Below are positions 10,521-60,090 of a stretch of DNA of 64,000 bases, one piece after another. The translations under genes and the position numbers were made by a program. The stretch covers positions 165,868,719-165,932,718 of the forward strand of contig OX352772.1 of the NCBI GenBank assembly GCA_947095535.1, given 5' to 3'. This DNA is from Poecilobothrus nobilitatus. Taxonomy: Eukaryota > Arthropoda > Insecta > Diptera > Dolichopodidae. How positions within the stretch are numbered: the stretch's first letter is position 1; each line of letters begins with the position of its first letter. A model generated the notes under the pieces. It was not told where the DNA came from and did not search any database. It saw nothing but the letters and a program-made list of their open reading frames with translations.

Positions 10521-10645
10521 CTTAATATTTAACGCTAATTTTCATGGAAAAAATTTTATCAGATATCGGATATTTAGAAAGAGTAAACTATACTTAATAC
10601 TACCAATAGGAAAGAGGGAGAAAAATAATGAATTCAAATGTCATG

Positions 10646-10747
10646 TATCCATAAGAATGTTAGCAGTGTGCCCATTTTTTTTGTGTACATACACATTTTT
10701 TACGCATGTGTTAAAAATATCGTAGATAATTATAGAAAATTTAGCTT
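10646..10747 (+). repeat. Left ~102-bp direct repeat flanking LINE
   Basis: Begins TATCCATAAGAATGTTAG and ends AATTTAGCTT. It is repeated at 14,501-14,603 with about five substitutions and one extra T. The copies abut the two ends of the LINE, so they look like an unusually long target-site duplication. Confidence 0.7.
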
Positions 10748-11411
10748 CAAGTTAGAGCTCATTATAAGTAATCAAACATCACAAAACATTGAATTCCAAA
10801 AAATGCAAAGTGAAGTTAAAGAACTCAAGGAATATCTAAATAGTCTTCTTGGGCAGAACCTTGGCTTAAGAAATGAAATACAGATTCTGAAAGATGAAAT
10901 TCTTCATAACAAAGTGGAGTTAGAAAAAATGAAACAAAAGCGAATAGAGAAACAAATAGAAATTAGTGGAATAAAAGATGAAAATATAGAAATTGAACCT
11001 ATTGATATCATTAAAAAACTGGGTCATGAAATTGGAATGATAATAGAGCCACATATATTTTCAAACATATTTAAAAAAAACAAAATCCCAGGAAGGTCAG
11101 GTGAGCCAAATAAATTAATTGTAGAATTTGATAACATTGAAAACAAAAGTGCATTTATGAAATTAGTAAAGGAAAAGAGAACATTAACAATGAAGGTAAT
11201 ATGTGATAATGGTACGAGTGAAAATGATACTATATTTGTCAATGAGAAATTAATACCATATTTCAGCTATTTAGCTAAAAAAGCTAGAGATATGAAAAGA
11301 AATAATATAATTGAGTTTACATGGATTAAAAATGGCAGATTGTTCATACGTAAAAATTCCAAATCAAAATACATACGAGTATTACACGAATTACACTTAA
11401 ATGTCGAATAA
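10748..11411 (+). pseudogene. LINE ORF1 (coiled coil plus RNA-binding domain), 5'-truncated
   Basis: Open from the left repeat to the stop at 11,409-11,411. Residues encoded at about 10,800-10,970 form a heptad-rich coiled coil (L-K-E-Y-L...L-K-D-E-I-L). The rest (E-I-S-G-I-K-D-E-N, then N-K-L-I-V-E-F, and F-T-W-I-K-N-G-R-L-F-I-R-K) is the C-terminal domain seen in ORF1 proteins of insect CR1-like LINEs, which bind the element RNA. An ATG at 10,638 lies in flanking DNA and would give a chance fusion. The normal N-terminus (often a PHD-like finger) is missing. Confidence 0.7.
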
Positions 11412-14178
11412 TTTAGTATTTGATCTGCCATTGAATATTCATGTAAATAATGTATATAAAAATTTTGACATACCACTGACTAACGAGAATACATTAAAAG
11501 TTCTGTACTTAAATGCAAGAAGTGTAAAATATAAAATCGATGACCTAACGTACTTATTAGATACACTTAAACAAACAATTCATATAATTAACATCACGGA
11601 AACCTGGTTGCTTGACTCTGAAACTAACCACATATATATAAAAAATTATTCTCCAATATTTTCTTGTAGACAATCACGTCAAGGTGGAGGTGCGCAATAT
11701 TTGTTCACAAGAGTATAAATTATGTAACAAACCATACATTTAGTGATGAGTTTAATAGTTTTATTAGTATAAAAATTGATTATAATGGACATAATTATAA
11801 TATATCGTCAATCTATAGACCTCCAGTAAAAAACTCGGTATTGGTTGACATATTTTTAAAAAAATTTGAAGATCAACTTGAAAATCTAAAAATAAAAAAC
11901 ACATTAATAATTGGCGATTTTAATTTTGACTTGTTAAATGCTAATGACAACAATAATAAACGATACAAAAATATTGTTGAGTCAAATGGTTATTTGTTTT
12001 GCCATAATCAATGTACTAGATCTATATCTAATACATGTCTTGATCATGTTATGTACAATGATCCTTCAGCTCAAATCGTCATATCTCCTTTTGAACATGA
12101 TATATCTGGTCATTTGGGTTTGATAGTAGAAATTAAAAATTCAAAACTCACAAATATAACATGTAAAAAAATCTCAATGAATGATAATAATAATAAACAA
12201 CTGATCAAGAAATTAGATTATGATAAAGTAAAAGAGAAATTGAAGGGTCTTACTGTCAAAGCAACAGATGTAAATGATATTGCAATGAAAAGATAAATAA
12301 AATTAAAAACAGTATTGAAAGTGCTACCGTTGTGGTAAAATTAAAAAGTAGTTTAAATAAGTATGGAGCACCTTGGATAGATGAAAATTGTATATAATTA
12401 ATAAAAAGAAAAGATTATTGGTTTAGAAAATATATGCAAAATAAAAATAGCGATTATTTGAAATTTAAATATAAATATTGGTGTAATAAATTAACAGAAA
12501 TGAAAAGAAAATGTAGAGTAAACTATGATATAAAAAAATTTGATGAAGCGTCTGGAGATGCTAGGAAGAATTGGAAATACTTGAAGGAAATAATAAACCC
12601 AAATACAGATTATAATAATAAATTTTTTAACAATATAATAAATGTAGAAGAAAAATATAAAAAAATTGAAAAGTTTAATAAATATTACTGCACAATAGGT
12701 GGAGAAATGGCTAAAAATTTTAGTGACATATATCTCCCCAAAAGTAGAACTAATAAGATCTTTCAGTTTAAATTGATTAATAAATACGAAACAATAAAAC
12801 TAATTGGTAATTTGAATAACACTAATTCTAAAGATTCAGATGGAATTTCAACCTTATTCATAAAAAAATGCAAAATGAAATTGGCGGAGAACATAATGAA
12901 GTTCATAAATGCATCATTAACTCAAAGTAAGATGCCTGAAATAATTAAAATAAATAAAGTTCTACCAATTTACAAAAATGGTAATATTCAAGATATAAAT
13001 AATTTTAGGCCCATTTCCATATCCTCGACAATTAGCAAAATTATTGAAGCATTTGTTAATAAATAGAATTTTTAAATACAGAATCACTAACTCAAAATAA
13101 ACAGTATGGCTTCAAGACAAAATCGAACACCGAAGCAGCGTTATTTGATGTCGTTTTAGAGATTCAGTATGGGCTAGATAAAAACAAAAAGACAACAGCT
13201 ATATTTTTCGATCTTAAAAAAGCCTTTGATTCGGTAGATAGAAGCATATTACTAAAAGTACTTTTCGAGATGGGAATCAATGGCAAAGAATTTAAATGGT
13301 TTGAAAGTTATTTGAATAATCGAATTCAATTTACTGAATGTGATGGAATAAGAAGGTCACAGTATTATGTGAATTATGGTGTTATCCAGGGTAGTTCGCT
13401 AGGCCCAACTTTATTTACGTGCTATATTAGTAGCCTGCTAAATGTGAATATGCAAGGCAAACCATTCATGTATGCTGACGACTTAGTTATTGTCTATAAA
13501 GAAGACACATTAAATAATCTCCAAAAGACCATAGATGCAGACTTAGTACTAATAAATGGTTGGATGAACAAACACAAACTGACAATAAATTCTAACAAAA
13601 CAAAATATATGATTTTTAAAGGTGGTGGTACTGACATCTTAAATATAAAATATAATTACCATAATATATGTCAAGTGGAGGAATACAAATATCTGGATGT
13701 TGTTGTAGATAATAAACTAAGTTGGAACTCTCAAATTGATCTACAAATTAATAAAGGCAGGAAACTGGCTGGCATATTTAAATTTGTCAATAATAGGGTG
13801 CCGTTAAAACTAAAAAGACCTTTATATTAAAGTATATTCCATAGCACTGTTGCCTATGCAATACAAATTTGGGGTAATACATTTAGTAAAGACCTAAATC
13901 AATTACAAAAGTTGCAAAACAAAGCCATAAAAAATTTATACGCTTATAAATACAGAACTTCAACTAAATTAATTCATGAAACACATGCAATTTTGCCACT
14001 GAATCTACAAATTAAATACAAACTAGTTATACAAGCACATATGATGATTACAGAAAATATAAACACAACACAAAATATACTACAAAACAGCGAATATCAC
14101 CAATACTATACTAGAAATGCAACAAACATTAGAATAAGTTCTTTAACAAAAAGATTTAACGGATTAGATACTATTTGA
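11401..14178 (+). pseudogene. LINE ORF2: endonuclease and reverse transcriptase, broken
   Basis: The endonuclease begins near 11,494 (L-N-A-R-S-V, T-E-T-W-L, G-D-F-N near 11,910-11,930). The reverse transcriptase shows F-R-P-I-S near 13,005, K-K-A-F-D-S-V-D near 13,215, G-S-S-L-G-P-T-L-F near 13,395 and Y-A-D-D-L near 13,475. At least four frame changes or stops (near 11,715, 12,295, 13,065 and 13,830) interrupt it. ORF1 and ORF2 overlap by about 10 bp, a common LINE arrangement. The G-S-S-L-G-P loop (usually G-V-P-Q-G-S) fits the CR1/Jockey group. Confidence 0.8.
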
Positions 14179-20402: not shown

Positions 20403-20408
20403 CATATT
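20403..20408 (+). repeat. Left Polinton target-site duplication (CATATT)
   Basis: CATATT directly precedes the AG that opens the left inverted repeat. The same six bases follow the right end at 35,344-35,349. A 6-bp duplication is the Polinton norm. Confidence 0.93.
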
Positions 20409-21049
20409 AGTAGGTAACCCTGCACTTTGGGATGGGAAAAAATCAATTAAAAAACAATTAAAATTGCCCGACATGCTGACCTACATTTTGATTAATGGGT
20501 TTAATGTAGGTTATGCTTAATTAGTAGGTTAAGAGTTTGTTTAGGTCGGCTCTTAATTAAGAAAATTGTATACTTGATTTAAATACTAGGCGCACATATA
20601 AAAGTAGTAAGAAAATTTTCTTATATGAAAATAAAAAACAGAAAAAATTTTTTATTTTTAAATCTACAGAGCATCTTTAAAATTGAAAGAAAAAAAAAAT
20701 TTTGCATTTAAAAACAAAAAGAAAATAAAAAACTTGGTCTTTATAATAGCATGCTTACATAAAAATGTGGTCTCTTCTGAATAGATACATATTTGTGTTT
20801 TTGTAATTTAAGAATTTATAGAAGAAAAAAGAAAACGAAAGTAATCAATTAATTGACTGCATGTCGTGTAAGATATTTTTTTATTTTTTAATTAATAAAT
20901 ATTAAAAAAAAAAAAAAAATATGAATAAAAAGAAAACAAACCGCAAATCAAAAATATGGAACTGGTTAAACTAAAAATGTACTCTTTACTCTTGATATGC
21001 ATTTATATTTATTTTTTTGTTTTTGTATGGAATAAAAAATAATTCAAAG
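20409..21049 (+). repeat. Left terminal inverted repeat of Polinton
   Basis: Begins AGTAGGTAACCCTGCACTTT and matches the reverse complement of 34,804-35,343 with few differences, ending at GAATTATTTTTTATTCC-type sequence near 21,049. About 104 bp of A/T-rich sequence (20,875-20,978) is present here where the right copy has three bases. The repeats serve in integration and in protein-primed replication of linear ends. Confidence 0.93.
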
Positions 21050-21142
21050 ATAGGTTAAGTGATTTTCGTATTTATTTTGAAAATATAAGATAAAAATAAA
21101 ACACATTTATTTTTATGTTTGAAATCTTTTATTATTATATTT

Positions 21143-21370
21143 TTATTTAAATCTAAGTTGAAACAATTTTTTACGATGATCATATGTTAAAATTGCAGAA
21201 ATAGTGAGACCAACTTTTTCTATACGTCTTTGAAATCTACTTCTATCACGTGCGTATTCTTCCCAATGACCTTCCCGTGCTGATCTGTAAGCATACTCCC
21301 ATACATGTATAACGTGAATTTCTTGTTTACTGTTGAAGTGAACTTTTTTAGTTTTGTTATTTAAATTCAT
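21143..21370 (-). CDS. GADD34/PPP1R15-like PP1-binding protein
   Basis: A 75-residue protein starting at ATG 21,370; an upstream in-frame TTG gives only three more residues. Residues 9-12 are K-V-H-F, the docking motif for the protein phosphatase 1 catalytic subunit. Residues 24-50 run from a tryptophan through R-E-G-H-W-E-E-Y-A-R-D-R-S-R-F-Q-R-R-I, which matches the functional core of the PPP1R15 (GADD34/CReP) family. In that family the core recruits PP1 to dephosphorylate eIF2-alpha and so restores translation. Viral members, such as herpesvirus ICP34.5 and the African swine fever virus DP71L protein, counter PKR-type shutoff; the ASFV one is similarly short. It lies 27 bp downstream of another minus-strand gene. 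Family membership is recognised from motifs; function is inferred. A PPP1R15 protein is not part of the usual Polinton gene set as I know it. Confidence 0.85.
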   Translation of the reverse strand: MNLNNKTKKVHFNSKQEIHVIHVWEYAYRSAREGHWEEYARDRSRFQRRIEKVGLTISAILTYDHRKKLFQLRFK

Positions 21371-21397
21371 ATCGTGCAAGTATGAAAATTGAAAGTC

Positions 21398-21889
21398 TTA
21401 ATCTAACATTTTTTCCTTTAAAAGATACATATATACATTATAACAATTTTTAACAGCACATCTGAAATTGTTGTTTGATAAGTGTATAGGACAATTTGAT
21501 TTAAAATTATCAATCTTTTGCAATGACGGCAAGTTTCTGCTTAGATCTTCTATTTTAACACTGTCAATGTACTTTTGAAGAAAAAGTTTTTTTTGTTCTC
21601 CTTTAACATAAATTTTTTCAGCAGGCTCTAAATAGTGTTTTAATATACATTTTACATCTAAATATTCAACTAAACCGTTATTCCATGTAAGACCGTTTAT
21701 CTTACTTTCGCAATACTGGTTATTATATTTTATATCGTGATTAAGTTCTTCTGCGGGGTACGGTGCTTTGAAGTGATACACAGTTGGAATTAAACTTCCT
21801 TTTTCAAGTATGGCTAACTCTTTTAGGAAATATTGCTTTTCATTTCCTTGTAAAAATTGTAGGTCAACTATGAGAACTTGTTTAACCAT
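21398..21889 (-). CDS. Polinton accessory protein, possible RNase H/DEDDh-like fold
   Basis: 163 residues from ATG 21,889. The N-terminus has a strand-like I-V-D-L-Q...F-L-K-E-L-A-I pattern, then F-K-A-P-Y-P, I-N-G-L-T-W-N-N-G, I-Y-V-K-G-E-Q-K and a C-terminal C-P-I-H...C-A-V-K-N-C cluster. I recall similar proteins in arthropod Polintons, without known function. The opening D-x-Q...K-E resembles the first motif of DEDDh exonucleases (D-x-E) with one acid replaced, so an inactive or altered nuclease-like fold is possible. The 111-residue protein at 26,369 shares the same pattern. It is read with the PPP1R15-like gene and diverges from the ATPase gene. Confidence 0.7.
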   Translation of the reverse strand: MVKQVLIVDLQFLQGNEKQYFLKELAILEKGSLIPTVYHFKAPYPAEELNHDIKYNNQYCESKINGLTWNNGLVEYLDVKCILKHYLEPAEKIYVKGEQKKLFLQKYIDSVKIEDLSRNLPSLQKIDNFKSNCPIHLSNNNFRCAVKNCYNVYMYLLKEKMLD

Positions 21890-22009
21890 GTCGAAGGCTT
21901 ATTGAAGAATGTTTCATAGAATAACTAAATTTACATTTATATTCCCTTCGGGAAAAGAGCTTTTCATATAAATATAGGTTAGCAGAGTCAGTTTTTAACT
22001 AATACAACT
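21890..22009. promoter_or_regulatory. Divergent promoter region, left Polinton block
   Basis: A 120-bp gap between the minus-strand pair and the ATPase gene. TATAAATA at 21,967-21,974 lies 36 bp before the ATPase ATG. On the other strand TATAAATG (21,941-21,934) lies about 45 bp before the ATG at 21,889. The two TATA-like boxes are placed nearly symmetrically around a CTTCGGGAAAAG palindrome-like segment. Confidence 0.5.
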
Positions 22010-22684
22010 ATGCTGTTTCACCCGTTTACGATGATGGTGGCGGGTCCATCATGCTGTGGTAAAACCACTTTTATTCATAATTTAATAACACATAAAAAAG
22101 AAAATATACAACCACATATTAATAGAATAATTTGGTGTAATCCAGACAAAAATGCCGTTCCAAAATATATTAAAGATGTGGAATATAGTAACACTATTCC
22201 AGATTTTAATGATAATCAAAAACCTTTGTTAATTATTATCGATGATATGATGTTAAATTCTCATGATAAGTATGTATGTGATTTATTTACTAGAGGATCT
22301 CATCATAGAAATTTATCTGTAATATTTGTAACACAAAATGTTTTTCACCAGGGAAAATTTTCAAGAGATATTTCACTTAACTGTAAATATTTAGTACTTT
22401 TCAAAAATCCAAGAGATAAATCGCAGATATTACCTCTAGCTCGCCAAATATACCCCAATCAAATCAAAGCATTTGAAAAAGTATATAATGATGTGACGTC
22501 AGTCCCATATGGCTATATATTAATAGATCTTACTCAGGACGTTAATGATATATTTCGATTAAGAAGTGATATATTTGGGAAAGGTTTGTGTTATTGTACG
22601 AGAGATCAATTAGAACAATTTGCGGAGGAATATGAAACGTTTGAAAACCAATCGTCATATATTGCACCTATTAAAAGCCTCTAA
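22010..22684 (+). CDS. FtsK/A32-type genome-packaging ATPase
   Basis: 224 residues, intact. Walker A G-P-S-C-C-G-K-T-T is at residues 12-20, Walker B L-L-I-I-I-D-D at 73-79, and a sensor-like V-I-F-V-T-Q-N at 104-110. It belongs to the HerA/FtsK superfamily ATPases that pump viral DNA into capsids in Polintons, poxviruses and other large DNA viruses. Length and motif spacing are normal for Polintons. The TATA-like box is 36 bp upstream, and the 3' end overlaps the next gene by 53 bp. Confidence 0.95.
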   Translation: MLFHPFTMMVAGPSCCGKTTFIHNLITHKKENIQPHINRIIWCNPDKNAVPKYIKDVEYSNTIPDFNDNQKPLLIIIDDMMLNSHDKYVCDLFTRGSHHRNLSVIFVTQNVFHQGKFSRDISLNCKYLVLFKNPRDKSQILPLARQIYPNQIKAFEKVYNDVTSVPYGYILIDLTQDVNDIFRLRSDIFGKGLCYCTRDQLEQFAEEYETFENQSSYIAPIKSL

Positions 22685-22955
22685 ACCAAAATTCCAGAAA
22701 GTAATTATAAAACACTGTGACCCTGAAGTAATAAAAACATTTTGCGAAATCTCTTTAAATATTTTAAAAGGTAATTGTAATCTGAGTAAAAAAGCAACAA
22801 CCCAATTACGAAAGTATAAAAAAGAATTAAGATCACTCATTTGCTCGAAAAAATCTATAAATAGCAAAAGAAAAATCATTATTCAACGTGGTGGATTTTT
22901 ACCTACACTTCTTGGTGCACTACTATCAGGTATAATCGGAAATTTTATAAAATGA
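22632..22955 (+). CDS. Small basic Polinton protein with C-terminal hydrophobic tail
   Basis: 107 residues from ATG 22,632 (an in-frame TTG at 22,620 would add four). Lysine- and arginine-rich helical body, with C-D-P-E-V-I-K...C-E-I-S-L-N-I-L-K-G-N and repeated K-K-x-L-R, ending R-G-G-F-L-P-T-L-L-G-A-L-L-S-G-I-I-G. Proteins of this shape are common in animal Polintons beside the ATPase. A virion core or membrane-active role is possible, but no function is established to my knowledge. The start overlaps the ATPase gene, and the stop overlaps the next gene in ATGA. Confidence 0.75.
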   Translation: MKRLKTNRHILHLLKASKPKFQKVIIKHCDPEVIKTFCEISLNILKGNCNLSKKATTQLRKYKKELRSLICSKKSINSKRKIIIQRGGFLPTLLGALLSGIIGNFIK

Positions 22956-23626
22956 ATAATACAACATTTAATAAAATGATAATTTTAAAACCTGAGATTT
23001 ATGAGAAAATGAAACAAAATGCGGACGTTGAACTTAATGAGTTGGATAAAAATATGAAAAAAATAATGTTAAATAAACATCTCACGGACACTCAAAAATG
23101 GTATTTATACAGACAAAATCTATTTAAAATAAGAAACAGAAAACGAGAACTTCCTAGAAATAAAGAGGAGAATGTAAAAATTACGGAAACAAAAGGTACT
23201 CAAACTCGTGCAAAACCAATGTATATAGATACGGAAACTCAATCGGATTTTCCTGAATATAAGAATGTTGGAATACAAGTTGTTCCTGAAGAAGAAGAAG
23301 TATATGAAAAAGAAGCTGATGACGAAGTATTTGATGATGAAATTCAAGAAAATATTTTAACAAAAGCATTGTCAGCTGCTTCAGCTGGAGAACGTCTTAG
23401 AAAAAGAAAATCAATTAGAAATCAAAATGTACAAATTTTTGAAACTGATACAGGAGACATTATAACTGTTCCTTTAGATAGCCCAAGTCCACCAACGAAA
23501 AAAGAAAAAACTATAAATAGCAAAGAGTTGAATAATTCATCAAGACGTGTTTTAAGGTCAGCAGCAGCTAATACGCAAACAGAACTTAATTTTCCAATTC
23601 GTAAGAATAAATCCGCAAGCTCATAG
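22952..23626 (+). CDS. Polinton conserved coiled-coil/disordered protein
   Basis: 224 residues. The N-terminal ~75 residues are helical (E-I-Y-E-K-M, then L-T-D-T-Q-K-W-Y-L-Y-R-Q-N-L). The middle has T-Q-T repeats and a strongly acidic stretch. The C-terminal third is basic with likely nuclear localisation segments (R-L-R-K-R-K). The L-x-D-x-Q-K-W-x-x-Y-x-x-x-L pattern recurs in Polinton proteins that I cannot assign a function. It overlaps the upstream gene by four bases (ATGA) and abuts the minor capsid gene, so it is probably a structural or core component. Confidence 0.7.
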   Translation: MNNTTFNKMIILKPEIYEKMKQNADVELNELDKNMKKIMLNKHLTDTQKWYLYRQNLFKIRNRKRELPRNKEENVKITETKGTQTRAKPMYIDTETQSDFPEYKNVGIQVVPEEEEVYEKEADDEVFDDEIQENILTKALSAASAGERLRKRKSIRNQNVQIFETDTGDIITVPLDSPSPPTKKEKTINSKELNNSSRRVLRSAAANTQTELNFPIRKNKSASS

Positions 23627-24541
23627 ACAACATACAAGTAAATAATGAAATTTACGTCACTTTACTCAGTGATTCATCTATGAACTATTATCCAGAAAAT
23701 TCATTATCATCTTTTTCAAATAAAATGAATAAATACATGTGTGATTCAAGGTGGAAAGTCGGTATTTCAGAAATGTATGTTAATGATTTCGTTCCAAATG
23801 TGTATGGTGAAGAATGGGAAAAAAGTACTCAAATATTTATTAAAGGTATGCAGAAAGATATGATAGGAGTTGGAACATCATATATTCCACACATAGAAAA
23901 ACAAATGATATGCGACTGGAAAGTTTTTCTACTACCAACACTAATTCAAAATATACGCCCACTTAATAGATTTACAAGAAAAGAAGTTGAACGACAGTTG
24001 ATATGGGGAATTTTTAATTTTATAAACGATGAATTTCATTATACACAATCAGCAATAGCTGAGGAAGCTGCCTAAAAATATAAGTTACACTACAATATGT
24101 GTTACTAGGCCTAAAATAGATATAAAAATAAGAGCAAATTATGCTTATACCCTGGAAGGACTTTTGACAACTTGTTTCAATCAAGTATCTTCGAAAGTTA
24201 CAGATTTTAAAAAATATAAAACACGTGTAATAGAAGCTTTCAAAACTTTTATAGATAGTTTACAATTGATTCCAATTATTAAACCAGATATGTTTTTTAT
24301 ATACACAGATATAATTGAACCGCAAAAAATAGGTGATAAAGATGTAAGGTGTTTAAGATCTGTTAACATACAAAATGCTTTCACTGATACTGTAAAAGAA
24401 TTCAGTAATATTAAATATTGCAATGTGGAGAAATCATTTAATAACATTTCATTACTTTTATGTGATAAATATGGATACAAAATAAACTTTTCTAATAGTT
24501 CAATTCCAACAAAAATTGTATTACATTTTAAAAAAGTATAA
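23623..24541 (+). pseudogene. Minor capsid (penton) protein, one frameshift
   Basis: The reading has the single jelly-roll penton pattern: Y-V-T-L-L-S-D-S-S, Y-P-E-N-S-L-S-S-F, then W-K-V-G-I-S-E-M-Y-V-N-D-F and I-S-Y-T-T-I. It is open in one frame to a TAA at 24,073 and continues in the next frame to 24,541. A single-base indel within about 24,050-24,073 explains both halves. The first ATG is 23,680, but homologous-looking sequence extends upstream to 23,623, where ATA stands at a plausible original start overlapping the previous stop. Total length (~300 codons) is normal. AATAAA follows at 24,542. The gene is broken here or the assembly has an error. Confidence 0.85.
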
Positions 24542-24584
24542 ATAAAAGCGATTTTACAAAATTATATATTTTATTTTATTCATT

Positions 24585-25031
24585 ATGGAGAGAGTATACT
24601 ATAAGTATTATTTAATTCAATCTGGTAGGGGACTTGATGATATCGGCCCTTTATTACATTCAACCGTATCTTTTCAAAGAGGTCGTGGATTGGGAAGCTT
24701 TTTTGGGGGACTTTTTAGATATTTGAAACCATTATTTACTTCAGGCGCTGATATTTTGAAAAAAGAGGTTATTAACTCTGGTATCAATGCTTTATCTGAT
24801 ATTGCATCTGGTGCAAATGTAAAAGAAGTTATGCAAGATCGTAGTAAAGAAATTGTTAAAAATGTACGACGTGGCGCCGTACGAAAACTGAATGAAATGT
24901 ATGGTTCTGGTAAAAGAAAACGAAAAGCTATAAAAAGACCATTCATTAAGAATTTAAATTATTTAATTCAAAACGACGCAAAGATAATAACAAAAAGAAG
25001 CAAAAAGATATTTTTAATTAATTATGATTGA
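24585..25031 (+). CDS. Polinton glycine-rich virion-associated protein (pVI-like position)
   Basis: 148 residues. The N-terminus reads Y-Y-K-Y-Y-L-I-Q-S-G-R-G-L-D-D-I-G-P, then Q-R-G-R-G-L-G-S-F-F-G-G-L-F-R, an amphipathic helix-like region. A basic C-terminal half has K-R-K-R-K-A-I-K-R. This protein typically precedes the major capsid gene in animal Polintons. By placement and composition it has been compared with adenovirus minor or core proteins; that role is inferred. It overlaps the capsid gene by eight bases. Confidence 0.75.
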   Translation: MERVYYKYYLIQSGRGLDDIGPLLHSTVSFQRGRGLGSFFGGLFRYLKPLFTSGADILKKEVINSGINALSDIASGANVKEVMQDRSKEIVKNVRRGAVRKLNEMYGSGKRKRKAIKRPFIKNLNYLIQNDAKIITKRSKKIFLINYD

Positions 25032-26331
25032 GTGTATGAAATCTGCGTTGGATATTTTTAAAACCCAACCCATTCAGTCTAGCATTTTACGATCTGAAGA
25101 AGTTTCCTGCAATCCTATTGCTTCTTTAGACAACCCTTCAACTATTGAATTTGTTTCACTGGGTCATGGCGATACATATAGAGATTTGTCTTCTACATAT
25201 TTGAGATTAAAAGTACAGATCTTAAAGAAAGATGGAACTCAATGGAATAAAGATAAAGATAAAAAAACTGATGGAACACCTATACCACAACCAAGTGTAG
25301 TTAATAACATTTTACATTCTTTAATAAAACAATGTAATGTTCAATTAAATGGCAAGAATATAACACCATCTGATGGAAATTATCACTATAGAGCTTATAT
25401 TGAATCATTATTGAATTATGGTACAGATGCCGCTGCAACACATTTAGAATGTGCAGGATGGATTCTAGATAAAGCAAATATAGCAAAATCTGATAATAAT
25501 GGATCAAAAGAGCGCGAAAAATTGTTTCATAATAGCAGTGTAGTGGAACTTATGGGTAAACTACACGTAGATATGTTTAATCAACCTACTCTACTTATAA
25601 ATAATGTTGACATTCGTATAGTTTTAACACTTGAAAAACCAGATTTTTATCTTTTTGCAGACGATTCTGATGAATCACAATTAAAAATTATAGAAGCCAC
25701 GCTATTTATGAGGCATGTTACCGTTAATCCAAGCGTGCTGTTAGCACACAATGCTGTTCTTGCGAAATCAAATGCTAAATATAATTATAAACGCGTTGAA
25801 GTAAAAAGTTTTACAATTCCAATGAACAGCTCATCAATTTTACTAGACAATGTTTTCATTGGGCAGTTACCAAATACAATAATTTTTTGCATGACAGAAA
25901 ATGTGGGTTACTCTGGAAAAAGGTCAAAAAACCCATATAATTTTAAGCATTTTGATATTTCACAATTTTTGCTTTATGTAAATGGTGTGCAAATTCCTAA
26001 CACTGCAATTGAAACTAGTTTCTCAGAGGAGAATAATTGTCATACTCGTGCGTATCACACACTTTTTTCAGGTACCGGAATATATCATAACGATAAAGGT
26101 CATCAGATAACAAAATCTATGTTTAGTAATGGATTTTTTATACTAGCTTTTGATTTAACTCCAGATGCATCTGGAAATGAAGTATGTCAAGGTTTACTAA
26201 ATCAGGGTACAGTTAGAATTGAGGCAAGGCTATCAAAACCACTTACATCTACACTAACTGCTATTGTTTATGGAGAATTTGATGCAAGCATACAAATTGA
26301 TAAAAATCGAAACATATTTACAAATCTATAA
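25024..26331 (+). CDS. Major capsid protein (double jelly roll)
   Basis: 435 residues, intact. The pattern is the Polinton/adintovirus hexon-like capsid protein: P-S-T-I-E-F near residue 40, T-Y-L-R-L-K-V, N-N-I-L-H-S-L-I-K-Q-C-N-V-Q-L-N-G-K near 95-112, Y-R-A-Y-I-E-S-L-L-N-Y-G near 127-138, a first-domain L-H-V-D-M-F-N-Q, and a second jelly roll ending in E-A-R-L-S-K-P-L. It assembles trimers that build an icosahedral shell. The size is at the short end for the family. No lesion seen. Confidence 0.93.
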   Translation: MIECMKSALDIFKTQPIQSSILRSEEVSCNPIASLDNPSTIEFVSLGHGDTYRDLSSTYLRLKVQILKKDGTQWNKDKDKKTDGTPIPQPSVVNNILHSLIKQCNVQLNGKNITPSDGNYHYRAYIESLLNYGTDAAATHLECAGWILDKANIAKSDNNGSKEREKLFHNSSVVELMGKLHVDMFNQPTLLINNVDIRIVLTLEKPDFYLFADDSDESQLKIIEATLFMRHVTVNPSVLLAHNAVLAKSNAKYNYKRVEVKSFTIPMNSSSILLDNVFIGQLPNTIIFCMTENVGYSGKRSKNPYNFKHFDISQFLLYVNGVQIPNTAIETSFSEENNCHTRAYHTLFSGTGIYHNDKGHQITKSMFSNGFFILAFDLTPDASGNEVCQGLLNQGTVRIEARLSKPLTSTLTAIVYGEFDASIQIDKNRNIFTNL

Positions 26332-26368
26332 ATAGAATACTGAAACATATATTTGAATATTCGACAAG

Positions 26369-26704
26369 ATGTCGTCATCCTGTGCACTTGTGGATGTGAA
26401 GTTTTGTTGTGATGATAAAAATACTTTATTTGTAAAAGATCTTTGTTTAGTTGGAATTAAAGAACCTTGTAAAAAATTTGTAAAAGAGTTTACTTACAAA
26501 TTTCCAACCAAAGAAATTATAAATGAAAATTTTGAAAATTACTCTTTCGGAACTGTACATAATGATCAAATTAATAAAGAATTAAGACAAGTACTAGAAA
26601 AATTTGATGTTATTGTAACAAATGAAAAAATAAAAAAGGAGTTTTTAATGAACTACATTAATGAAATTAGTAGAGTGTATGATTTGAGTCAGTTTGAGTC
26701 ATGA
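26369..26704 (+). CDS. Short homologue of the 163-residue accessory protein
   Basis: 111 residues. A-L-V-D-V-K-F...L-F-V-K-D-L-C-L-V, then F-T-Y-K-F-P, V-H-N-D-Q-I-N-K-E-L and V-T-N-E-K-I-K-K-E-F-L line up in order with I-V-D-L-Q-F...K-E-L-A-I, F-K-A-P-Y-P, L-T-W-N-N-G-L-V-E-Y-L and V-K-G-E-Q-K-K-L-F-L of the protein at 21,398-21,889. It lacks the C-terminal Cys/His cluster. The two are therefore probably distant paralogues. Function unknown. Its stop codon overlaps the protease start (ATGA). Confidence 0.65.
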   Translation: MSSSCALVDVKFCCDDKNTLFVKDLCLVGIKEPCKKFVKEFTYKFPTKEIINENFENYSFGTVHNDQINKELRQVLEKFDVIVTNEKIKKEFLMNYINEISRVYDLSQFES

Positions 26705-27190
26705 ACACTTTAGAAATAACTAGTGTTTTAAAATGTAACAAATTTACAAAACAAATATTTTAAGGGAGTTTTTGCTTTAGACAAAATTCCAAATATATTA
26801 GAAAAACCAACTTTTTTAATTGTAAACACTGACAAGATAAAAGATCCTGGAACACATTGGTTTGCTCTTTATTTTCCAAAGCATGGTTGCACAGAATATT
26901 TTGATTCGTATGGTGGAGTTCCAGATAAACCGGAAATTTTGAAATACTTGAAAAATCAGTGCATAGTTTTTAATAATAGGCAGATACAGGGTATTCTTTC
27001 GGATGTATGTGGGCAATACTGTTGCGTTTATGGCTGGTATAGATGTTTTGGTTTAAGTATGAAAACTTTTTTGAACGAGTTTCACAAAGATAATCATATA
27101 GAAAACGACAATCTGATTATTAATATGTTTTACAACTTATTTGGAAATTTAAATTTTTCACAATCTTGTGTACCTCAGCAATATAATTAA
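26701..27190 (+). pseudogene. Adenain-type cysteine protease, one frameshift
   Basis: The start ATG 26,701 overlaps the previous stop. After 20 codons the frame hits TAA at 26,761, in a run of four T where three would keep the frame. The next frame then continues to 27,190. It contains all the adenovirus-type maturation protease elements: H in G-T-H-W-F-A-L-Y, D in Y-F-D-S-Y-G, and Q seven residues before the C of D-V-C-G-Q-Y-C. The family cleaves capsid precursors. Full length would be about 160 residues, near normal for Polintons. Everything but the one-base indel looks functional. Confidence 0.9.
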
Positions 27191-27219
27191 TATTTAAAAA
27201 CTTTAGTTAAAACGTATTA

Positions 27220-27771
27220 ATGGAAGATCAAAGTTCGAACACAAATTTGATGTTGAGCTATACATATTTTCTCAACAGAAATCAGTCATTAAAAGTTCTT
27301 GTTGGTTTTGATACAGAATCTCTTGTAGCAACTTGCATTTTTCACCGTATTGGAAAAAAGCCAGCTATTTTAAAATATCATGATTGGTGTAAGTTCTATC
27401 AGCAATTTTATGAAAAGTACTCTAAACAAACAATAAAGAATACAAAATTATGTTTACAATATGGGTTAAAAATTGTTATTGGCCGATGTCTTAGTATCAA
27501 CAAGGAGGAAGCTGGCATATTTTACAACTTAATTGATTTTCTTCAAGCTGTAATGATACACAATAAAAATGCTGAATCAAATGTACGGGAATATGTTTTT
27601 AAATATATCAAAACGTGTCAAGAAAAACATGTTATGAAATTGCATGAAGAAATATATATTCCAATACAACGTTATAGTGTTCAATGCAATTATTCTAGAT
27701 TGTTTTTTGAAATACCTGTACTACTAGAAAATAAAATTTGTAATATTTTAGTCAAGAACAACAATAAATGA
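27220..27771 (+). CDS. Polinton protein of unknown function (183 residues)
   Basis: Intact, no recognised domain. Visible features are a strand-rich first third (L-K-V-L-V-G-F-D-T-E, A-T-C-I-F-H), an aromatic W-C-K-F-Y-Q-Q-F-Y helix, several cysteines, and a helical I-F-Y-N-L-I-D-F-L-Q-A-V segment. It is last in the plus-strand block after the protease. Similar late-block proteins occur in arthropod Polintons, but I cannot name this one with confidence. Confidence 0.6.
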   Translation: MEDQSSNTNLMLSYTYFLNRNQSLKVLVGFDTESLVATCIFHRIGKKPAILKYHDWCKFYQQFYEKYSKQTIKNTKLCLQYGLKIVIGRCLSINKEEAGIFYNLIDFLQAVMIHNKNAESNVREYVFKYIKTCQEKHVMKLHEEIYIPIQRYSVQCNYSRLFFEIPVLLENKICNILVKNNNK

Positions 27772-27871
27772 AAATTTGTAAAATTTATTTAATTTATTTA
27801 ATTTGTTTTTATTATAAAAATAGGTACTTATAAGATACATTTATACAAGTATTTTTATATATTATTTGAGG

Positions 27872-28114
27872 TTACAAATTATTTCTAAAAAGTTCTGCAA
27901 AATAGTCCGGATCGCCTTCTTGGTTATTTATGTCCCAAATTTGTTGCTCCACTATATCTTCATCTAAATCTTGAAACGGTGGTATAAATTCTTCCGTTTC
28001 CATTAATTCTTCCTCATCTACAGTGGATGTAATTTCATCAACTTGAATCTCATTTTGTATACTGACTATTGAAGTTTCCTCAGTATATGGAAATGTTGTT
28101 GAATCAGGTTCCAT
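27872..28114 (-). CDS. Small acidic protein of unknown function
   Basis: 80 residues from ATG 28,114. An in-frame TTG further upstream would only add a poly-lysine artefact from the T-run before the ATG. It is strongly acidic (E-E-E-L-M-E-T-E-E, D-L-D-E-D) with a conserved-looking C-terminus D-P-D-Y-F-A-E-L-F. No membrane segment or known domain. It diverges from the integrase gene across a 185-bp gap. Acidic short linear-motif proteins are often host-interaction factors; that is speculation here. Confidence 0.6.
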   Translation of the reverse strand: MEPDSTTFPYTEETSIVSIQNEIQVDEITSTVDEEELMETEEFIPPFQDLDEDIVEQQIWDINNQEGDPDYFAELFRNNL

Positions 28115-28299
28115 TTTTTTTTTTTTTTTTTTTTTCTTAGCTAAATATCTAAGCAAAATTGAATCAAAAATGATTTGTCAGAAAAATTACAACGCGTTAT
28201 ATACTGTAGAACCCAGTCAAAATTCAAAGTTTTCAGAGTATATATAAATAAAGAAATGTAAGATTGGATTTTTAAAACTAGTTAGATAGTGTAAAAATC
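28115..28299. promoter_or_regulatory. Divergent promoter region before integrase
   Basis: TATATAAATA at 28,241-28,250 is 50 bp before the integrase ATG. A weaker TATATAAC on the other strand (28,205-28,198) could serve the acidic-protein gene. A long T-run follows 28,114. Confidence 0.45.
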
Positions 28300-29220
28300 A
28301 TGTCAAGATCTCAAATAGTAAAAGAAATACATAGACCAGTTAGAAAAAGGTATCTTAGAAGGAAAGTCAAACAGAAAGGAGTACATGATACGTGGCAAAT
28401 TGATCTAGTGGAAATGATTCCTTATGGAAAATTCAACAAAGGTTTTAAATATATGTTAACCGTTATAGATATATTTTCTAAATATGCTTATGCTGAACCA
28501 ATTAAAACTAAAACTGGTAGTAATGTTTTAAATGCTTTAAAGAAAATTATAAACCGAGCTAAAAACTTACCTAAAAACATTCATTCAGATCAAGGTAAAG
28601 AATTTTTCAATTCGATATTCCAAAATTTTGTTGAGAAGAAGGGTATTAATCACTATCATACTTACTCTGAAATGAAAGCATCTATTGTAGAACGCTTTAA
28701 TCGAACTTTGAAAAATTTAATGTGGAAAACATTTAGTTTACAAGGAAACTACAAATGGATTAATACATTGCAATCTTTATTAAACACCTATAATTCCACT
28801 AAACATAGAACAACTAAATTACCCCCTGAAAAAATTTCTAAGAAAAACGAAAAATTTATTTTAAAAAATGTTTACATGCAACCTAAAATTTCTGTAAAAG
28901 CTAAATATAAAGTTGGAGACTATGTTAGAATAAGTAAATACAAAAAAACTTTTGAAAAAGGTTATCAACCGAACTGGTCTACTGAAATTTTTAAAATTAT
29001 CAAAGTAAACAGTACATATCCGATCACATATCAGTTGATTGATTATAAAAATGATTCAATAATTGGTGGATTTTATGAGAAGGAACTCGCATCTGTTAAA
29101 CACCCACATGTATATCTTGTCGAGAAAATTTTAAAGAAAAAAGGCAAGAAAGTTTTTGTTAAATGGCTTGGGTTTGACGAAAAACATAACACATGGATAA
29201 ATTCAAAAAATATTGTTTAA
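28300..29220 (+). CDS. Retroviral-type integrase with C-terminal chromodomain
   Basis: 306 residues, intact. Catalytic triad D35 (T-W-Q-I-D), D97 (H-S-D-Q-G-K-E-F) and E131 (V-E-R-F-N-R-T), with 33 residues between the second and third acids as in Polinton c-integrases. After a V-G-D-Y-V-R-I segment, residues ~270-303 form a chromodomain (Y-L-V-E-K-I-L...V-K-W-L-G-F...T-W-I). The zinc-binding N-terminal domain is not evident, so the start at 28,300 may be short or the domain absent. It joins element ends to the target, giving 6-bp duplications. The chromodomain may steer integration to modified histones. Confidence 0.95.
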   Translation: MSRSQIVKEIHRPVRKRYLRRKVKQKGVHDTWQIDLVEMIPYGKFNKGFKYMLTVIDIFSKYAYAEPIKTKTGSNVLNALKKIINRAKNLPKNIHSDQGKEFFNSIFQNFVEKKGINHYHTYSEMKASIVERFNRTLKNLMWKTFSLQGNYKWINTLQSLLNTYNSTKHRTTKLPPEKISKKNEKFILKNVYMQPKISVKAKYKVGDYVRISKYKKTFEKGYQPNWSTEIFKIIKVNSTYPITYQLIDYKNDSIIGGFYEKELASVKHPHVYLVEKILKKKGKKVFVKWLGFDEKHNTWINSKNIV

Positions 29221-29428
29221 TATTAAACAGTAAAATAAAAACTTTAATAAAGATCTGAAAAACTTGATAACATCTGAAAATAAAATAAAATCCTAACATC
29301 TGAAAAATGAAAATAAATTTAAAACAGTACAAAATTTATTTAAAATAAAATTTTTTATTGAACAAATTCTTTATATAAAATTCTTATTGTATACAAATTC
29401 TATAACATAAAAGCTTAAAGTATAATTA
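29221..29428. other. Convergent intergenic spacer
   Basis: AT-rich with three repeats of AACATCTGAAAA-like sequence (29,262-29,310) and AATAAA strings that may serve as polyadenylation signals for the integrase gene and for the convergent poly-Q gene. Confidence 0.4.
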
Positions 29429-29876
29429 TTATTGTTTTGTGGCGAATTCAAAATCACCACGCTCTTCTTTTAAAACTAATTCATTTTCCTCGTTTATGAG
29501 GAAATAATTATTTTTTTCGATTTCTTCTCGGAAATCATTATCTTCAAATACCGCAACTTTTTGTTGCGGTATAAATATAATATTATTTAGGGTCTCGAAG
29601 ATCCATTTTTCACCGTAAACGGTGTTAATTTTTTAAATTTTTTGTAATTTATAGAGCCTACTTGGCTCCATATCTTTAACCTTTAAAAATTTTTTTAAAG
29701 GTTTTTTTTTTTTTGAATTAAATAATTCCACCAGTTTTCTTTTTTTGGTGGAATTTGATGTTGACTCCTGGTACACAAAATGCTGTGCCAGCAAATGTTC
29801 GATTTGTTCTGGTTGCTGATAAAATGCTGAATGCTGATGTTGTTGTTGTTGCTCTTGTTGATGATGTTGCTGTTGC

Positions 29877-29916
<40 letters not shown>

Positions 29917-30028
29917 GGTGCTGGTCATGATAAACTGACATTTTAGTCATCTTCTTCTTTTTTAAAGGAATTTGAGGCTGAATGGTTACATCATCCAACA
30001 CGTAAACCTTGTCAAATTCCTGTGCCAT
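29429..30028 (-). pseudogene. Poly-glutamine basic protein, in-frame stop
   Basis: Starts at ATG 30,028 with a TATA-like box (30,062-30,055) 27 bp upstream. Residues 1-35 end in K-K-K-K-M-T-K-M. A glutamine/histidine tract follows (29,930-29,830), then a basic K-K-R-K-L-V-E-L-F segment. A TAA at 29,633-29,635 stops the protein at 131 residues, yet the same frame stays open for 66 further codons to 29,429. That tail reads N-T-V-Y-G-E-K-W-I-F-E-T, similar to a T-x-Y-G domain seen in proteins of Polinton-rich genomes, possibly OB-fold-like and DNA-binding. The stop is therefore likely a recent nonsense change (or an error). Glutamines are almost all CAA/CAG in a pure repeat. Confidence 0.7.
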
Positions 30029-30561
30029 TCTGCTTGTTTCAAATTAAACTGATATTTTTATAAAAATCTTGATGTATTTATATATAAATTTCGAGTAAAA
30101 TATTAAAACATAATAAAACTTTAGAACTCTTGCAAATATTTTCTAAGTTGAAAGGGTAAAATCTATAAATATGTCAGTTGATTACAATGTTGCTAATATT
30201 TTATGCAGAAAAAGCGTAATTTATTAAATTGCCGTTTGATTACAATGTTGTAATACTGTTTTCTATTTGAAATACGTATAAGATGAGAATCTAATTTTTA
30301 ATGAAATATAATTTATTATAGTGCCATTTGATTACAATTTATATCTCTATGATAAGTTTTAAATTAAATTGTAGTATGAAAATTACAATGTTGCATAGAA
30401 TTTTCTATTTAAATCTTAAGATAGGATTTAATTGGGGTTCTAATTAAAACTACTAAAATTTATTAAAGCGTCATTTTAATTTAAAAGAATGACTTTGTAT
30501 TTGTAAATTTAATATTATTCTGTTATTCAAACATTTAACATCTGAAATTCGTATAAAGAAA
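30029..30561. promoter_or_regulatory. Divergent region with iterated repeats upstream of polymerase
   Basis: A 533-bp gap between two divergent genes. The words GTTTGATTACAATGTTG and AATTTATTAAA recur with variation: GATTACAATGTTG near 30,180, 30,237 and 30,388, GATTACAATTTA near 30,328, and AATTTATTA(A/T)A near 30,219, 30,308 and 30,456. Spacing is roughly 60-90 bp. Such iterons could bind a regulator or a replication factor; there is no direct evidence of function. Confidence 0.45.
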
Positions 30562-33500
30562 ATGTCGAAAAAAATTATTTTACAAAGATTTCTTACCGAA
30601 ACTATAACGCCTTATATAATAGAAAGTGAGAATTCGACATTTGTTAAACGGTTTAATATGAATGGTCGTAAAATAAAATTTGTAATTAAATCCGTACCTG
30701 AAAATAGAGAACCAATTAGTTGGATTAAGGATGCTATACATCAAATAATCAGGATTGCAGTCGAAGATGTGAATTCCACTGATAAGATTGGGTTAACATT
30801 TTGTGGAGAGAGCTTTGAACATCAAGGTCCTGCGTATCTCAGTTTTAGATCCGCTCACGAACTTAAATTTAGCGACGTTTGGGATGTAATTTCTAATGTT
30901 TTTCAAAGTAATTCTGAAGGTAGTTATTTATAATGCATTTTTAGTTTTATTTTTTATAAAATATTTTTATTTTACATCTATAGGCTTAAGTACAGACACA
31001 TTTTGTTTAACAAAAATGTGTTTTATTATTTTATTATTAAAAATGTGTTTTATTACAAAAATGTGTTTTGTTTTATTACCCACCGGTAGAGGCAGAAATA
31101 ATAAATATTCAAATTATAAAGAGGAATGCTTAAAAAGGAAAGGAATAATAACAATAAAAAACAGCGATAATTTATGTCTACCACGTGCACTTGTGGTTTC
31201 AATAGCTAAAATTGAAAAATTTATTGAATATGAAAAAATTCGAAAAGATATAGGAAAACTTCAAACTTTAACAGCTTTAAAATTATTAAAAACATCAAAA
31301 ATAACAATTCCATCTGAAGGTTGCGGAATTCATGAATTGAATCAATTTCAAAAATTTTTACATAAACACAAAATTATTGTATATAAATATGGAACAAGGG
31401 GTGCAGAAGTAATATTTGAAGGATTTAATAACGGAAAAAAAATTAACTTGCTATTCCATAATAATCATTACAATGTAATAACTTCGCTAACAGCTGCTTT
31501 TTGCACAGCATTTTATTGTGAAGAATGTCATATTCCGTATTCTAAGAAAAATGAACATAGGTGTTCGAAAAGTTGTCCTTGCTGTCAAAACTCACCAGCT
31601 TGTTCAATTAATGTTAAAAATATTTTATGTTTGCAGTGCAATCGCACATTTCGTGGTCAGTCATGTTTTGAAAATCATAAGGCTTCCAGTTCAAAAAATA
31701 GAAGCATCTGTGAAGAAATTAGGAAATGCAAATCTTGTTTTAAAGTTCATAAAAGTTGTAGGATTCATATATGTGGAGAATATTTTTGTAAAATTTGCGA
31801 TAATCATGTTCCTGAAAACCATAAATGCTTCATTCAGCAAGACAAAAAAAAAGTAAATTTTGAAAATTGCATTTACGTATTTTATGATTTAGAAACAAGA
31901 CAAGAAGAAATTAACTCTACAAAAATAAAAGAACATGTTCCAAGTTTATGTGTGGCTCAATTGAGATGCTTTAAATGTATAAACATTGACTCTCTATACT
32001 TCTGTGGAAAATGTAAATTAAGAGAAAGAATTTTTAAAACGAAAAATGTGATAGACGATTTCATGGAATTTATTTTTAAATTAAGAAAGGAATTCAAAAA
32101 GATTGTCATAATTGCTCATAATGGACAAGCGTTTGACCATCAGTTTATTCTGAATTATATTCTCAATAAAACTGTACTTGAACCAAAGTTAATTATGCGA
32201 GGTACAAAAATTATTGTTATGATAATTGATAATATTAAATTTATTGATTCTATGAACTACTTTCCTATGGCCTTGGCAAAATTACCAAAAGCTTTCAATT
32301 TATCGATCAATTTGAAAAAGGGTTATTTTCCACATCTATTTAATAAATTGGAAAATGAAAATTACATTGGCTCACTTCCAGAAATTAAATACTATAACCC
32401 TAATACAATGAAAGCAAAAGAGCGTAATGAATTTTTAATGTGGTATGAACAAAATAGAAACTCAGAATTTAATATGGAAAAAGAAATTTTAGAATACTGT
32501 AAAAATGATGTTGAAATTCTAACTAAAGCATGTCTGGTTTTTAGAATTTTTTTTTTAGAAGAATGTAATGTGGAACCGTTTTTAGAAGCAACAACAATAG
32601 CTTCCGCCTGTAATCTTGTATATAGAAGAAACTTTCTCAAATCGAATACTATAGGCATTATACCAAGAAAAGGATATAGGATGGTAGACAATCAATCAAA
32701 AATTGCCTTGCAATGGCTTCTTTGGGAAAAAGATTTGAGAAAAATTGATTTGAAATGTGCATTTAATGGAAAAGAAAAGCAAATTGGAAATGTTAGGGTC
32801 GATGGATTTTGCGAAGAGACTAAAGAAATATTTGAATTTTATGGTTGCTATTATCATGGACATCCAAAATGTTTAACAAATCAAAGGGATATACCATTAC
32901 ATGATAACTCTGGCGATACTTTGAATCTACGATATGAAAAAACATTAATGAGATCAGAGTTTATAAAATCATGTGGATATAAAGTTATTGAGATGTGGGA
33001 ATGTGAATTTCGGGAGCTAATGAGGCACAATGAAAATATGAGATATTTAGAAAACCATTCATTAATTAATTTAGTTCCTTTAAATCCACGTGATGCATTT
33101 TATGGCGGAAGAACGGGAAATACTTACACATATTACAAATGTAAACAAGGAGAAAAAATTAAGTACATAGATGTATGTTCCTTATACCCATATATTTGTA
33201 AACGAGGGAATTTTCCCATAAACCATCCTAAGATTTATGTTGGAGAAGATGCCTGCTCCAAGATAAACATAATGACTATTGATGGTATTATTAAATGTAA
33301 AATCTTACCACCAACAAATCTATTACACCCCGTGTTACCTGTCAAACAAAATAATAAATTGATGTTCTCACTATGTAGCACTTGTAGTGAACACAAATAT
33401 CAAGGAAAATACTGTGAACATACAGACGATGAAAGAGCATTAGTAGGAACTTGGGTAACTGATGAAATTAAAAAAGCAATTGAAAAAGGGTATAAACTTT

Positions 33501-34492
33501 TAAATATTTATGAAGTTTGGGAATACGAAACAGTAAAATATGACAATTGCAATGGTATTGATGGCTTATTCACTAAAATGATGAACAAATTTATAAAGAT
33601 TAAACAAGAAGCTTCTGGATGGCCAATAAAATGTCAAACTCAAAAAGAAAAGGAAGAATATATTGATAGTTTTTTTGAAAAGGAAGATATTAAATTAGAA
33701 TACGATAAAGTAGTTAATAACCCTGGTTTAAGATCTTTTGCTAAAATTATTTTAAACTCATTCGGGGGAAAATTTGGGCAAAGGGAAAATCAACAACAAA
33801 CCACCATTATAAATCAACCTTTTAAACTTTACGAGTTAATAACAAACCCCTCTGTAGAAGTATGTCACATATTTCCAGTAAATGAAGAAAACATAGTGGT
33901 TAGCTGGAAATATAAAGAAGAAGCAGTAATTTCTTTATCTACTGTCAATGTAAGTATCGCTGCTTATACAACAACACATGCTCGTCTTCAACTTTACAGT
34001 TATTTAGAGAAGCTGGATAGTAGAGTATTATATTACGACACCGATTCAGTCTTGTATATTAGCGGAGAAGGAGAATATGAACCACAAATAGGCGAATTTA
34101 TAGGAGACATGACTGATGAGTTAGAAAGTTATGGTATAGGAAGTTATATTACAGAATTTGTAAGTGGTGGTCCCAAGAACTACGCCTACAAAATTTACTG
34201 TACAAAAGATAATACAGAAAAAATTGTTTGTAAAGTTAAAGGATTCTCTCTTAGTTATGAAGCTTCTCTAAAAATTAATTTCAATAGCATAAAGGAAGCA
34301 GTTTTAAATTCATTGAATAATACAGACACATACGTCATTTCAGAAAATATTCGTCGAAATAAAAATCATGATGTACTTACGATTCCCGAAATAAAAAAAT
34401 ATCAACCAAAATCGGAAAAACGAAAATTTAATGAATATGGTAGTTCTTTACCGTATGGATATAACAGAAAAAAAGCACATATTGATAAGTAA
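30562..34492 (+). CDS. Protein-primed DNA polymerase B (with 64-bp intron)
   Basis: Exon 1 is 30,562-30,919 and exon 2 is 30,984-34,492. A GT-AG intron of 64 bp (GTAGTTATTT...CTATAG) joins them in frame, giving 1,288 residues. All numbers are for the spliced protein. Exonuclease motifs: D-L-E (~419), N-G-x-A-F-D (~502), Y-x-K-N-D (~625). Polymerase motifs: S-L-Y-P (~848), K-x-x-L-N-S-F-G-G (~1040), Y-D-T-D-S (~1136). Residues ~295-405 are a Cys/His-rich zinc-binding region usual in Polinton polymerases. Residues ~178-286 have D-N-L-C-L-P-R-A-L and H-N-N-H-Y-N-V, an OTU-protease-like Cys/His pair. It copies the linear element from its terminal repeats using a protein primer. No stop within exon 2. 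Confidence 0.93.
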
Positions 34493-34803
34493 ATCAAAAT
34501 TAGACATTATTTACATATATATACTAAGTATATATAGTTCGATTTCTTTTATGATCATTACATTTTTTAAAATCTTAATAAATTCACAATAAATTCTTAA
34601 CATAAACTCGTTATTATTTGTATATTATAATTTTTTAAAATCAGGAACTATACTATCATAGAATCATTCAACTTTTACATTATATTCTTTTTATATCAAT
34701 TCCTTGCTTTGACTAGATAACTAGTGATTTGTATACTCGTATATTAATTTAACAAAAACAAGTCTTAATTTTTTTTTTCTTTTTTTAGTTTAAAACTAGA
34801 ACT
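34493..34803. other. AT-rich spacer between polymerase and right repeat
   Basis: No coding signal. An AATAAA at 34,578 could end the polymerase transcript. Confidence 0.5.
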
Positions 34804-35343
34804 CTTTGAATTATTTTTTATTCCATACAAAAACAAAAAAATAAATATAAATGCGTATCAAGAGTAAAGAGTACGACATCTTACACGACATGCAGTCAAT
34901 TAATTGATTACTTTCGTTTTCTTTTTTCTTCTATAAATTCTTAAATTACAAAAACACAAATATGTATCTATTCAGAAGAGACCACATTTTTATGTAAGCA
35001 TGCTATTATAAAGACCAAGTTTTTTATTTTCTTTTTGTTTTTAAATGCAAAATTTTTTTTTTCTTTCAATTTTAAAGATGCTCTGTAGATTTAAAAATAA
35101 AAAATTTTTTCTGTTTTTTATTTTCATATAAGAAAATTTTCTTACTACTTTTATATGTGCGCCTAGTATTTAAATCAAGTATACAATTTTCTTAATTAAG
35201 AGCCGACCTAAACAAACTCTTAACCTACTAATTAAGCATAACCTACATTAAACCCATTAATCAAAATGTAGGTCAGCATGTCGGGCAATTTTAATTGTTT
35301 TTTAATTGATTTTTTCCCATCCCAAAGTGCAGGGTTACCTACT
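34804..35343 (-). repeat. Right terminal inverted repeat of Polinton
   Basis: Reverse complement of the left repeat, ending AGGGTTACCTACT. At 540 bp it is about 100 bp shorter than the left copy because it lacks the A/T-rich segment at 20,875-20,978. Confidence 0.93.
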
Positions 35344-35349
35344 CATATT
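35344..35349 (+). repeat. Right Polinton target-site duplication (CATATT)
   Basis: Matches 20,403-20,408 exactly. Confidence 0.93.
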
Positions 35350-59911: not shown

Positions 59912-60090
59912 ATTTCGAATCTTCTATAAATTTCGATCTTTCAAATTAAACAAATAACTCAAATTCAATTATTACGGATATATATCTTACTGAAAATGAA
60001 ATATTTGAAGCAATCATTAACATCGATACTAAAAAAGGTGTAGGACCTGACTTAATCCCGCCGACTTTTTTATACAATAGTGTTAGTTAT

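Follow-up and report, generated by a model that had tools for sequence, protein, structure and literature searches.

A short PPP1R15-type gene in a Polinton element: a likely viral-type adaptor for eIF2-alpha dephosphorylation

It is debated whether the Polintons of animals are infectious viruses or nothing more than transposons, and this question is touched by a locus in the stretch of DNA analysed here (64,000 nucleotides of contig OX352772.1, hereafter the window). A Polinton/Maverick element in the window holds an open reading frame (ORF) for a 75-residue protein of the PPP1R15 (GADD34/DP71L) type. Has the element its own adaptor for the phosphatase that acts on eIF2-alpha? The comparisons presented below make this likely: judged from its sequence, the protein is predicted to be a viral-type eIF2-alpha phosphatase adaptor that docks host PP1 together with G-actin. 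Short viral-type PPP1R15 proteins are a known kind, carried in this case by a Polinton. The ORF had been placed at 21143..21370 in a preliminary description of the window, and both its coordinates and its length of 75 residues hold, on the minus strand. A TAA closes the frame 9 codons upstream of the ATG, an AATAAA overlaps the stop codon, and 268 nt separate the 3' end of the ORF from the inner end of the left repeat of the element.

Membership of the PPP1R15 family, which had been proposed from the motifs, is supported by profile searches and by a search of PDB sequences. The significant profile match on which the proposal depended was found in Pfam, where the protein matches PF10488 (PP1c_bdg) with an E-value of 2.1e-10 and 41.1 bits against a cutoff of 26.1, residues 8-71 lying on positions 163-228 of the 230 of the profile. 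A phmmer search of the sequences in PDB retrieved PPP1R15A (7nzm_C, 2.8e-9), PPP1R15B (4v0u, 6.7e-9) and DP71L (9nb9, 5.1e-6), and all six matches with E-values up to 10 are one of these three proteins. In addition, a profile derived from the 89 other rows of a family alignment (A5) gave 94.6 bits for the ORF, while the runner-up among the 1,856 stop-to-stop pieces of the window reached 6.6 and the best score on 10 block-shuffled windows was 7.7; with this profile, no second family-like stop-to-stop piece of at least 20 residues was found in the window. Since the rows of A5 were gathered with queries that were or contained the 75-residue protein, the independent tests are those in Pfam and PDB. 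At the level of sequence, the motif match is not due to chance.

The residues that matter for the function of the family are also conserved. The alignment with human PPP1R15A, in the form found in the eIF2-alpha holophosphatase complex, is ungapped over residues 8-66, with 26 of 59 positions identical and a constant numbering offset of 546. The distance of 26 between V10 and W36 equals that between V556 and W582 in the human protein. After 8 initial residues, K-V-H-F occupies residues 9-12 and G-H-W-E-E-Y-A-R-D-R-S-R-F-Q-R-R-I residues 34-50; the preliminary description was right about the order of K-V-H-F and G-H-W-E-E-Y-A-R-D-R, but the interval it gave, 23 residues, is in fact 21 between F12 and G34. 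Among the positions assigned in the literature to contacts with PP1, G-actin or eIF2-alpha, 13 of 14 are identical to human PPP1R15A, the remaining one being a change from V to I (V564). The PP1 docking set appears in the order and spacing of PPP1R15A (K9-V10-x-F12, I18-H19, R32 and W36), with K555, V556, F558, H565, R578 and W582 of the human numbering identical. Similarly, R587, D588, R591 and R594, which face eIF2-alpha, correspond to R41, D42, R45 and R48, and the G-actin-facing F592, R595 and R612 to F46, R49 and R66. The roles of these residues are taken from PMC8500838, PMC10743859 and PMC4394352; R571 and W575 of PMC4394352 are taken as R578 and W582, since F585 and I589 in that article are likewise shifted by 7. 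In A5, none of the 90 rows departs from W36 or D42, and R32, R45, F46 and R49 are almost invariant. Furthermore, ISAIL (residues 57-61) lines up with LSAVL of DP71L from African swine fever virus (ASFV; row P0080 of the alignment), a stretch reported to be needed for eIF2-alpha dephosphorylation (PMC5346070).

Structure prediction is compatible with this assignment. The parts predicted in the ORF are the RVxF motif (KVHF, 9-12), a PhiPhi motif (IH, 18-19), Arg32, Trp36, an eIF2-alpha/actin helix at 35-61 and a second helix at 63-74. In the AF2 model, an extended N-terminal part reaches residue 24 and is followed by helices at 25-31, 35-61 and 63-74, with mean pLDDT of 87-94 over residues 41-75. 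Among PDB structures, the model comes closest to PPP1R15A as seen in the pre-dephosphorylation complex (chain 7nzm_C; prob 0.98, E 0.038), a match that is weak by VIA Z (3.3). In a library of viral structures, the top matches are DP71L of Erinnyis ello granulovirus (E 4.7e-5, 47% identity), SWPV1-205 of shearwaterpox and DP71L of Wiseana iridescent virus, followed by two herpesvirus ICP34.5 proteins; five of the eight matches listed are thus of this kind, and the other three have E-values above 8.

On this basis, a mechanism can be proposed in which PP1 would be gripped by the KVHF motif, I18-H19 and R32. Residues 35-74 would form a kinked helix on which actin holds F46, R49 and R66, and the opposite face (R41, D42, R45 and R48) would hold eIF2-alpha in such a way that its phosphorylated serine reaches PP1. 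Host PP1 and G-actin would in this manner be assembled on phosphorylated eIF2-alpha and its phosphorylation reversed. The element would make the protein during its replication, keeping its messages translated against kinases of the PERK or GCN2 type. The preliminary description named PKR-type kinases; PKR is a vertebrate kinase, and in an invertebrate the opponents would be PERK or GCN2.

The long N-terminal region of cellular PPP1R15A and PPP1R15B, which serves in membrane targeting and eIF2 recruitment, is not present in the 75-residue ORF, and for this reason the ORF is filed under the short viral type rather than with the cellular proteins. In cells, the stress response is suppressed by core fragments of human PPP1R15A and PPP1R15B that measure 70-76 residues (PMC4394352), so that the missing part alone is no argument against activity. 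The same absence of the upstream eIF2-binding region could also fit a protein that recruits PP1, and perhaps actin, for an element or host protein, or that titrates PP1, without acting on eIF2-alpha, all the more as many PP1 regulators have an RVxF motif (PMC8500838, PMC10743859). However, the four named eIF2-alpha contact residues are kept, and DP71L, a viral relative of the same size, does act on eIF2-alpha (PMC5346070), which makes a different substrate very unlikely.

Another alternative arises from the organization of the gene in host genomes. The conserved core of PPP1R15 has been described as one separate exon (PMC4394352), so that one capture event would yield just such a piece, and only one copy was seen here. 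The ORF might then be a host exon captured by chance, functionless in the element and heading for decay. This reading seems unlikely in view of the own start codon and intact frame of the ORF, and of contact residues that are almost all retained despite the modest overall identity to human PPP1R15A. Its base composition also resembles that of the other element genes, with a GC content at third codon positions of 0.18 compared with 0.18-0.24 in the five other element genes measured. Moreover, the nearest protein found, P0032 (source label lgn, longest contig 2,407 nt), has 75 residues as well, is 68% identical over its whole length and shares nearly the same N-terminus, including the stretch outside the Pfam match; it differs at two contact positions (H19Q and R41C).

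The adaptor reading is compatible with more than one source of the gene, and the relatives bear on this point. The bare 75-residue sequence as query gave no candidate with three shared words among proteins of about 41-131 residues. A padded query reaching longer proteins gave six matches among 10 candidates, all with PF10488, the four named ones being from frogs and 52-55% identical, and a query built from a five-row alignment gave 83 matches at E up to 1 among 943 candidates. These 83 include P0032, ASFV DP71L (41% over 68 columns of a gapped alignment), a shearwaterpox protein and, from Callosobruchus maculatus, a protein that bears the name Protein DP71L (40% identity). A vertebrate origin from the frog matches was considered and not accepted: only proteins that share exact 5-residue words can become candidates, and CpG is not depleted in the window, whose GC content is 27.7% and whose observed/expected CpG ratio is 0.92 (0.80 in the element). 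This composition fits an invertebrate, is compatible with the arthropod host presumed in the preliminary description and speaks against a CpG-depleted genome of the vertebrate type. Several of the matches (P0033, P0037, P0041 and P0046) open with intron-like sequence running into Q-V-x-F and are therefore probably host exons. Others, such as P0032, P0043 and P0065, are short and have their start codon close to the motif or at it.

A tree was built from 70 of the 90 rows, leaving out 18 near-duplicates chosen by eye and two fragments. In this tree, the window protein forms its closest group with P0032, P0066 and P0074 (99/85); P0043, P0057 and P0065 join next (99/84), followed by P0045 and P0049 (98/93). 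This supported clade with eight short or fragmentary proteins, together with the structure-library matches to granulovirus and iridovirus DP71L, would be explained if the gene had passed between insect DNA viruses of these two kinds and Polintons and had not been a private capture from a host. Nevertheless, the granulovirus and iridovirus proteins are absent from the tree, its deep forks are not separated, and named cellular-type proteins are about as similar to the window protein, as with the frog and Callosobruchus sequences above. Such an exchange is put forward as possible, although the balance of these points leans somewhat against it. Good support was obtained for no more than 13 of the 67 inner branches and the bootstrap is not settled, so that no donor is named. 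Two more well-supported groups of short PPP1R15 proteins were observed in the tree (P0067, P0071, P0073 and P0079, 100/99; P0076, P0078 and P0085, 100/100), and these possibly belong to other viruses with the gene.

The carrier of the ORF is a complete-looking Polinton (Table 1). The preliminary description had located the gene inside such an element, and this is upheld by identical terminal inverted repeats (TIRs) of 466 bp and a 6-bp target-site duplication (TSD), features of Polintons as described in PMC8097293, and by the presence of an integrase, a family B DNA polymerase (PolB) and an A32-type ATPase. The identity of the repeats and the perfect duplication suggest that the insertion is recent.

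Table 1. Coordinates of the Polinton element in the window, its terminal structures and its genes
Feature	Position	Strand	Remarks
Polinton/Maverick element	20409..35343	.	14,935 bp; ends AGTAGG...CCTACT
Target-site duplication CATATT, left copy	20403..20408	.	6 bp
Target-site duplication CATATT, right copy	35344..35349	.	6 bp
Left terminal inverted repeat	20409..20874	+	466/466 bases identical to right repeat
Right terminal inverted repeat	34878..35343	-	Partner of left repeat
Inner inverted-repeat arm	20979..21050	+	71/72 bases complementary to 34803-34874
Inner-arm partner	34803..34874	-	
75-aa PPP1R15 (GADD34/DP71L-type) ORF	21143..21370	-	ATG to TAA, intact; reads toward left repeat
163-aa ORF	21398..21889	-	Directly upstream of PPP1R15 ORF, same strand and frame; TAA and 27 nt between
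Packaging-type ATPase (Pox_A32)	22010..22684	+	Open; 26.1 bits vs cutoff 22.8; Walker-type motif in translation
435-aa ORF, candidate major capsid protein	25024..26331	+	Position and size only
Integrase (rve) with chromodomain	28300..29220	+	Open; rve 1.5e-18; motifs readable
Family B DNA polymerase (DNA_pol_B_2)	30896..34492	+	Open; 1.6e-46; polymerase motifs present

Among the other genes of the element, the 435-residue capsid candidate was matched by no profile above cutoff and by none of the PDB sequences at E-values up to 1; its single-sequence model has a pLDDT of 29.5. No adenovirus-type protease was found among the 10 proteins scanned with Pfam, which are a subset of the ORFs; PHROGs (10 proteins) and NCBIfam (eight proteins) gave weak, chance-like matches only, and PolB matched nothing in PDB by sequence at E-values up to 0.01. 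The 163-residue ORF was assigned to no family by Pfam and found weak matches only among PDB sequences (best E 0.059). A readthrough fusing it to the PPP1R15 ORF was considered because of the shared frame, and nothing supports it. In a single comparison, this ORF is weakly similar to a 111-residue ORF that follows the capsid candidate (26369-26704, plus strand; 28 of 120 columns identical, E 1e-4), and the pair possibly represents a gene duplicated within the element. The adjoining plus-strand ORFs 23680-24075 and 24290-24541 (region 23680-24541) resemble, on inspection by eye, the two parts of a single split gene of the minor capsid type. A 131-residue ORF with a long poly-Gln run lies between integrase and polymerase (29633-30028, minus strand), and frames of the non-LTR retrotransposon type, reverse-transcriptase-like by eye, flank the element at 10632-14178, 40737-42716 and 58306-61527.

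Related loci were searched for in two collections. None was found among viral contigs with the 75-residue protein, the ATPase, the 435-residue ORF, PolB, P0059, A4 and P0077 as queries, and none among genome contigs with A7; tblastn against phages gave no match either. As scans with single proteins find close relatives only and the genome collection is prokaryotic, these negative results carry little weight. No report of a PPP1R15 gene in a Polinton was found in the openly accessible literature searched. A word search of the main texts of PMC11071296, PMC8097293, PMC8363768, PMC10675110 and PMC11071308 found no mention of PPP1R15 or eIF2, and the genome paper of Erinnyis ello granulovirus (PMC4192325) contains no words starting with eif or phosphatase.

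What, then, would such a gene say about Polintons? To a transposon inherited only vertically, a dedicated antagonist of translation shutoff would be of little use; to a virus, which has to express its late genes in a resisting cell, it would be of good use. In a tentative reading, judged a little less probable than its contrary, an animal Polinton lineage with a virus stage would carry its own adaptor against the eIF2-alpha-kinase defence, in a host that may lack PKR; granuloviruses and iridoviruses of insects would share the gene or exchange it with them, and Polintons would be armed viruses with host-defence genes. The gene suggests that small DNA viruses and animals contend over the control of eIF2-alpha phosphorylation, and further cases may lie among the short, unnamed PPP1R15 proteins that form groups in sequence collections.

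Three known systems help to place the Polinton protein. Like the viral proteins of the DP71L type, found in ASFV, shearwaterpox (SWPV1-205), Erinnyis ello granulovirus and Wiseana iridescent virus, it is a short PPP1R15-type protein, with structure-alignment identities of 47% to the granulovirus DP71L, 37% to SWPV1-205 and 33% to the iridovirus DP71L. It resembles ASFV DP71L in consisting of the conserved core only, whereas its RVxF-to-Trp spacing is that of PPP1R15A, ungapped, and the alignment with ASFV DP71L needs gaps; the known carriers of this type are large DNA viruses and the carrier here is a Polinton. With cellular PPP1R15A and PPP1R15B (GADD34 and CReP) it has the C-terminal core in common, ungapped over 59 residues with the human PPP1R15A and 52-55% identical to frog PPP1R15A-like proteins, but at only 75 residues it lacks their N-terminal membrane and eIF2-recruiting parts. 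Finally, the element shares TIRs, a 6-bp TSD, integrase, PolB and ATPase with Polinton/Maverick elements of the adintovirus type, the capsid gene being here only a candidate, and adds to this set a PPP1R15 gene.
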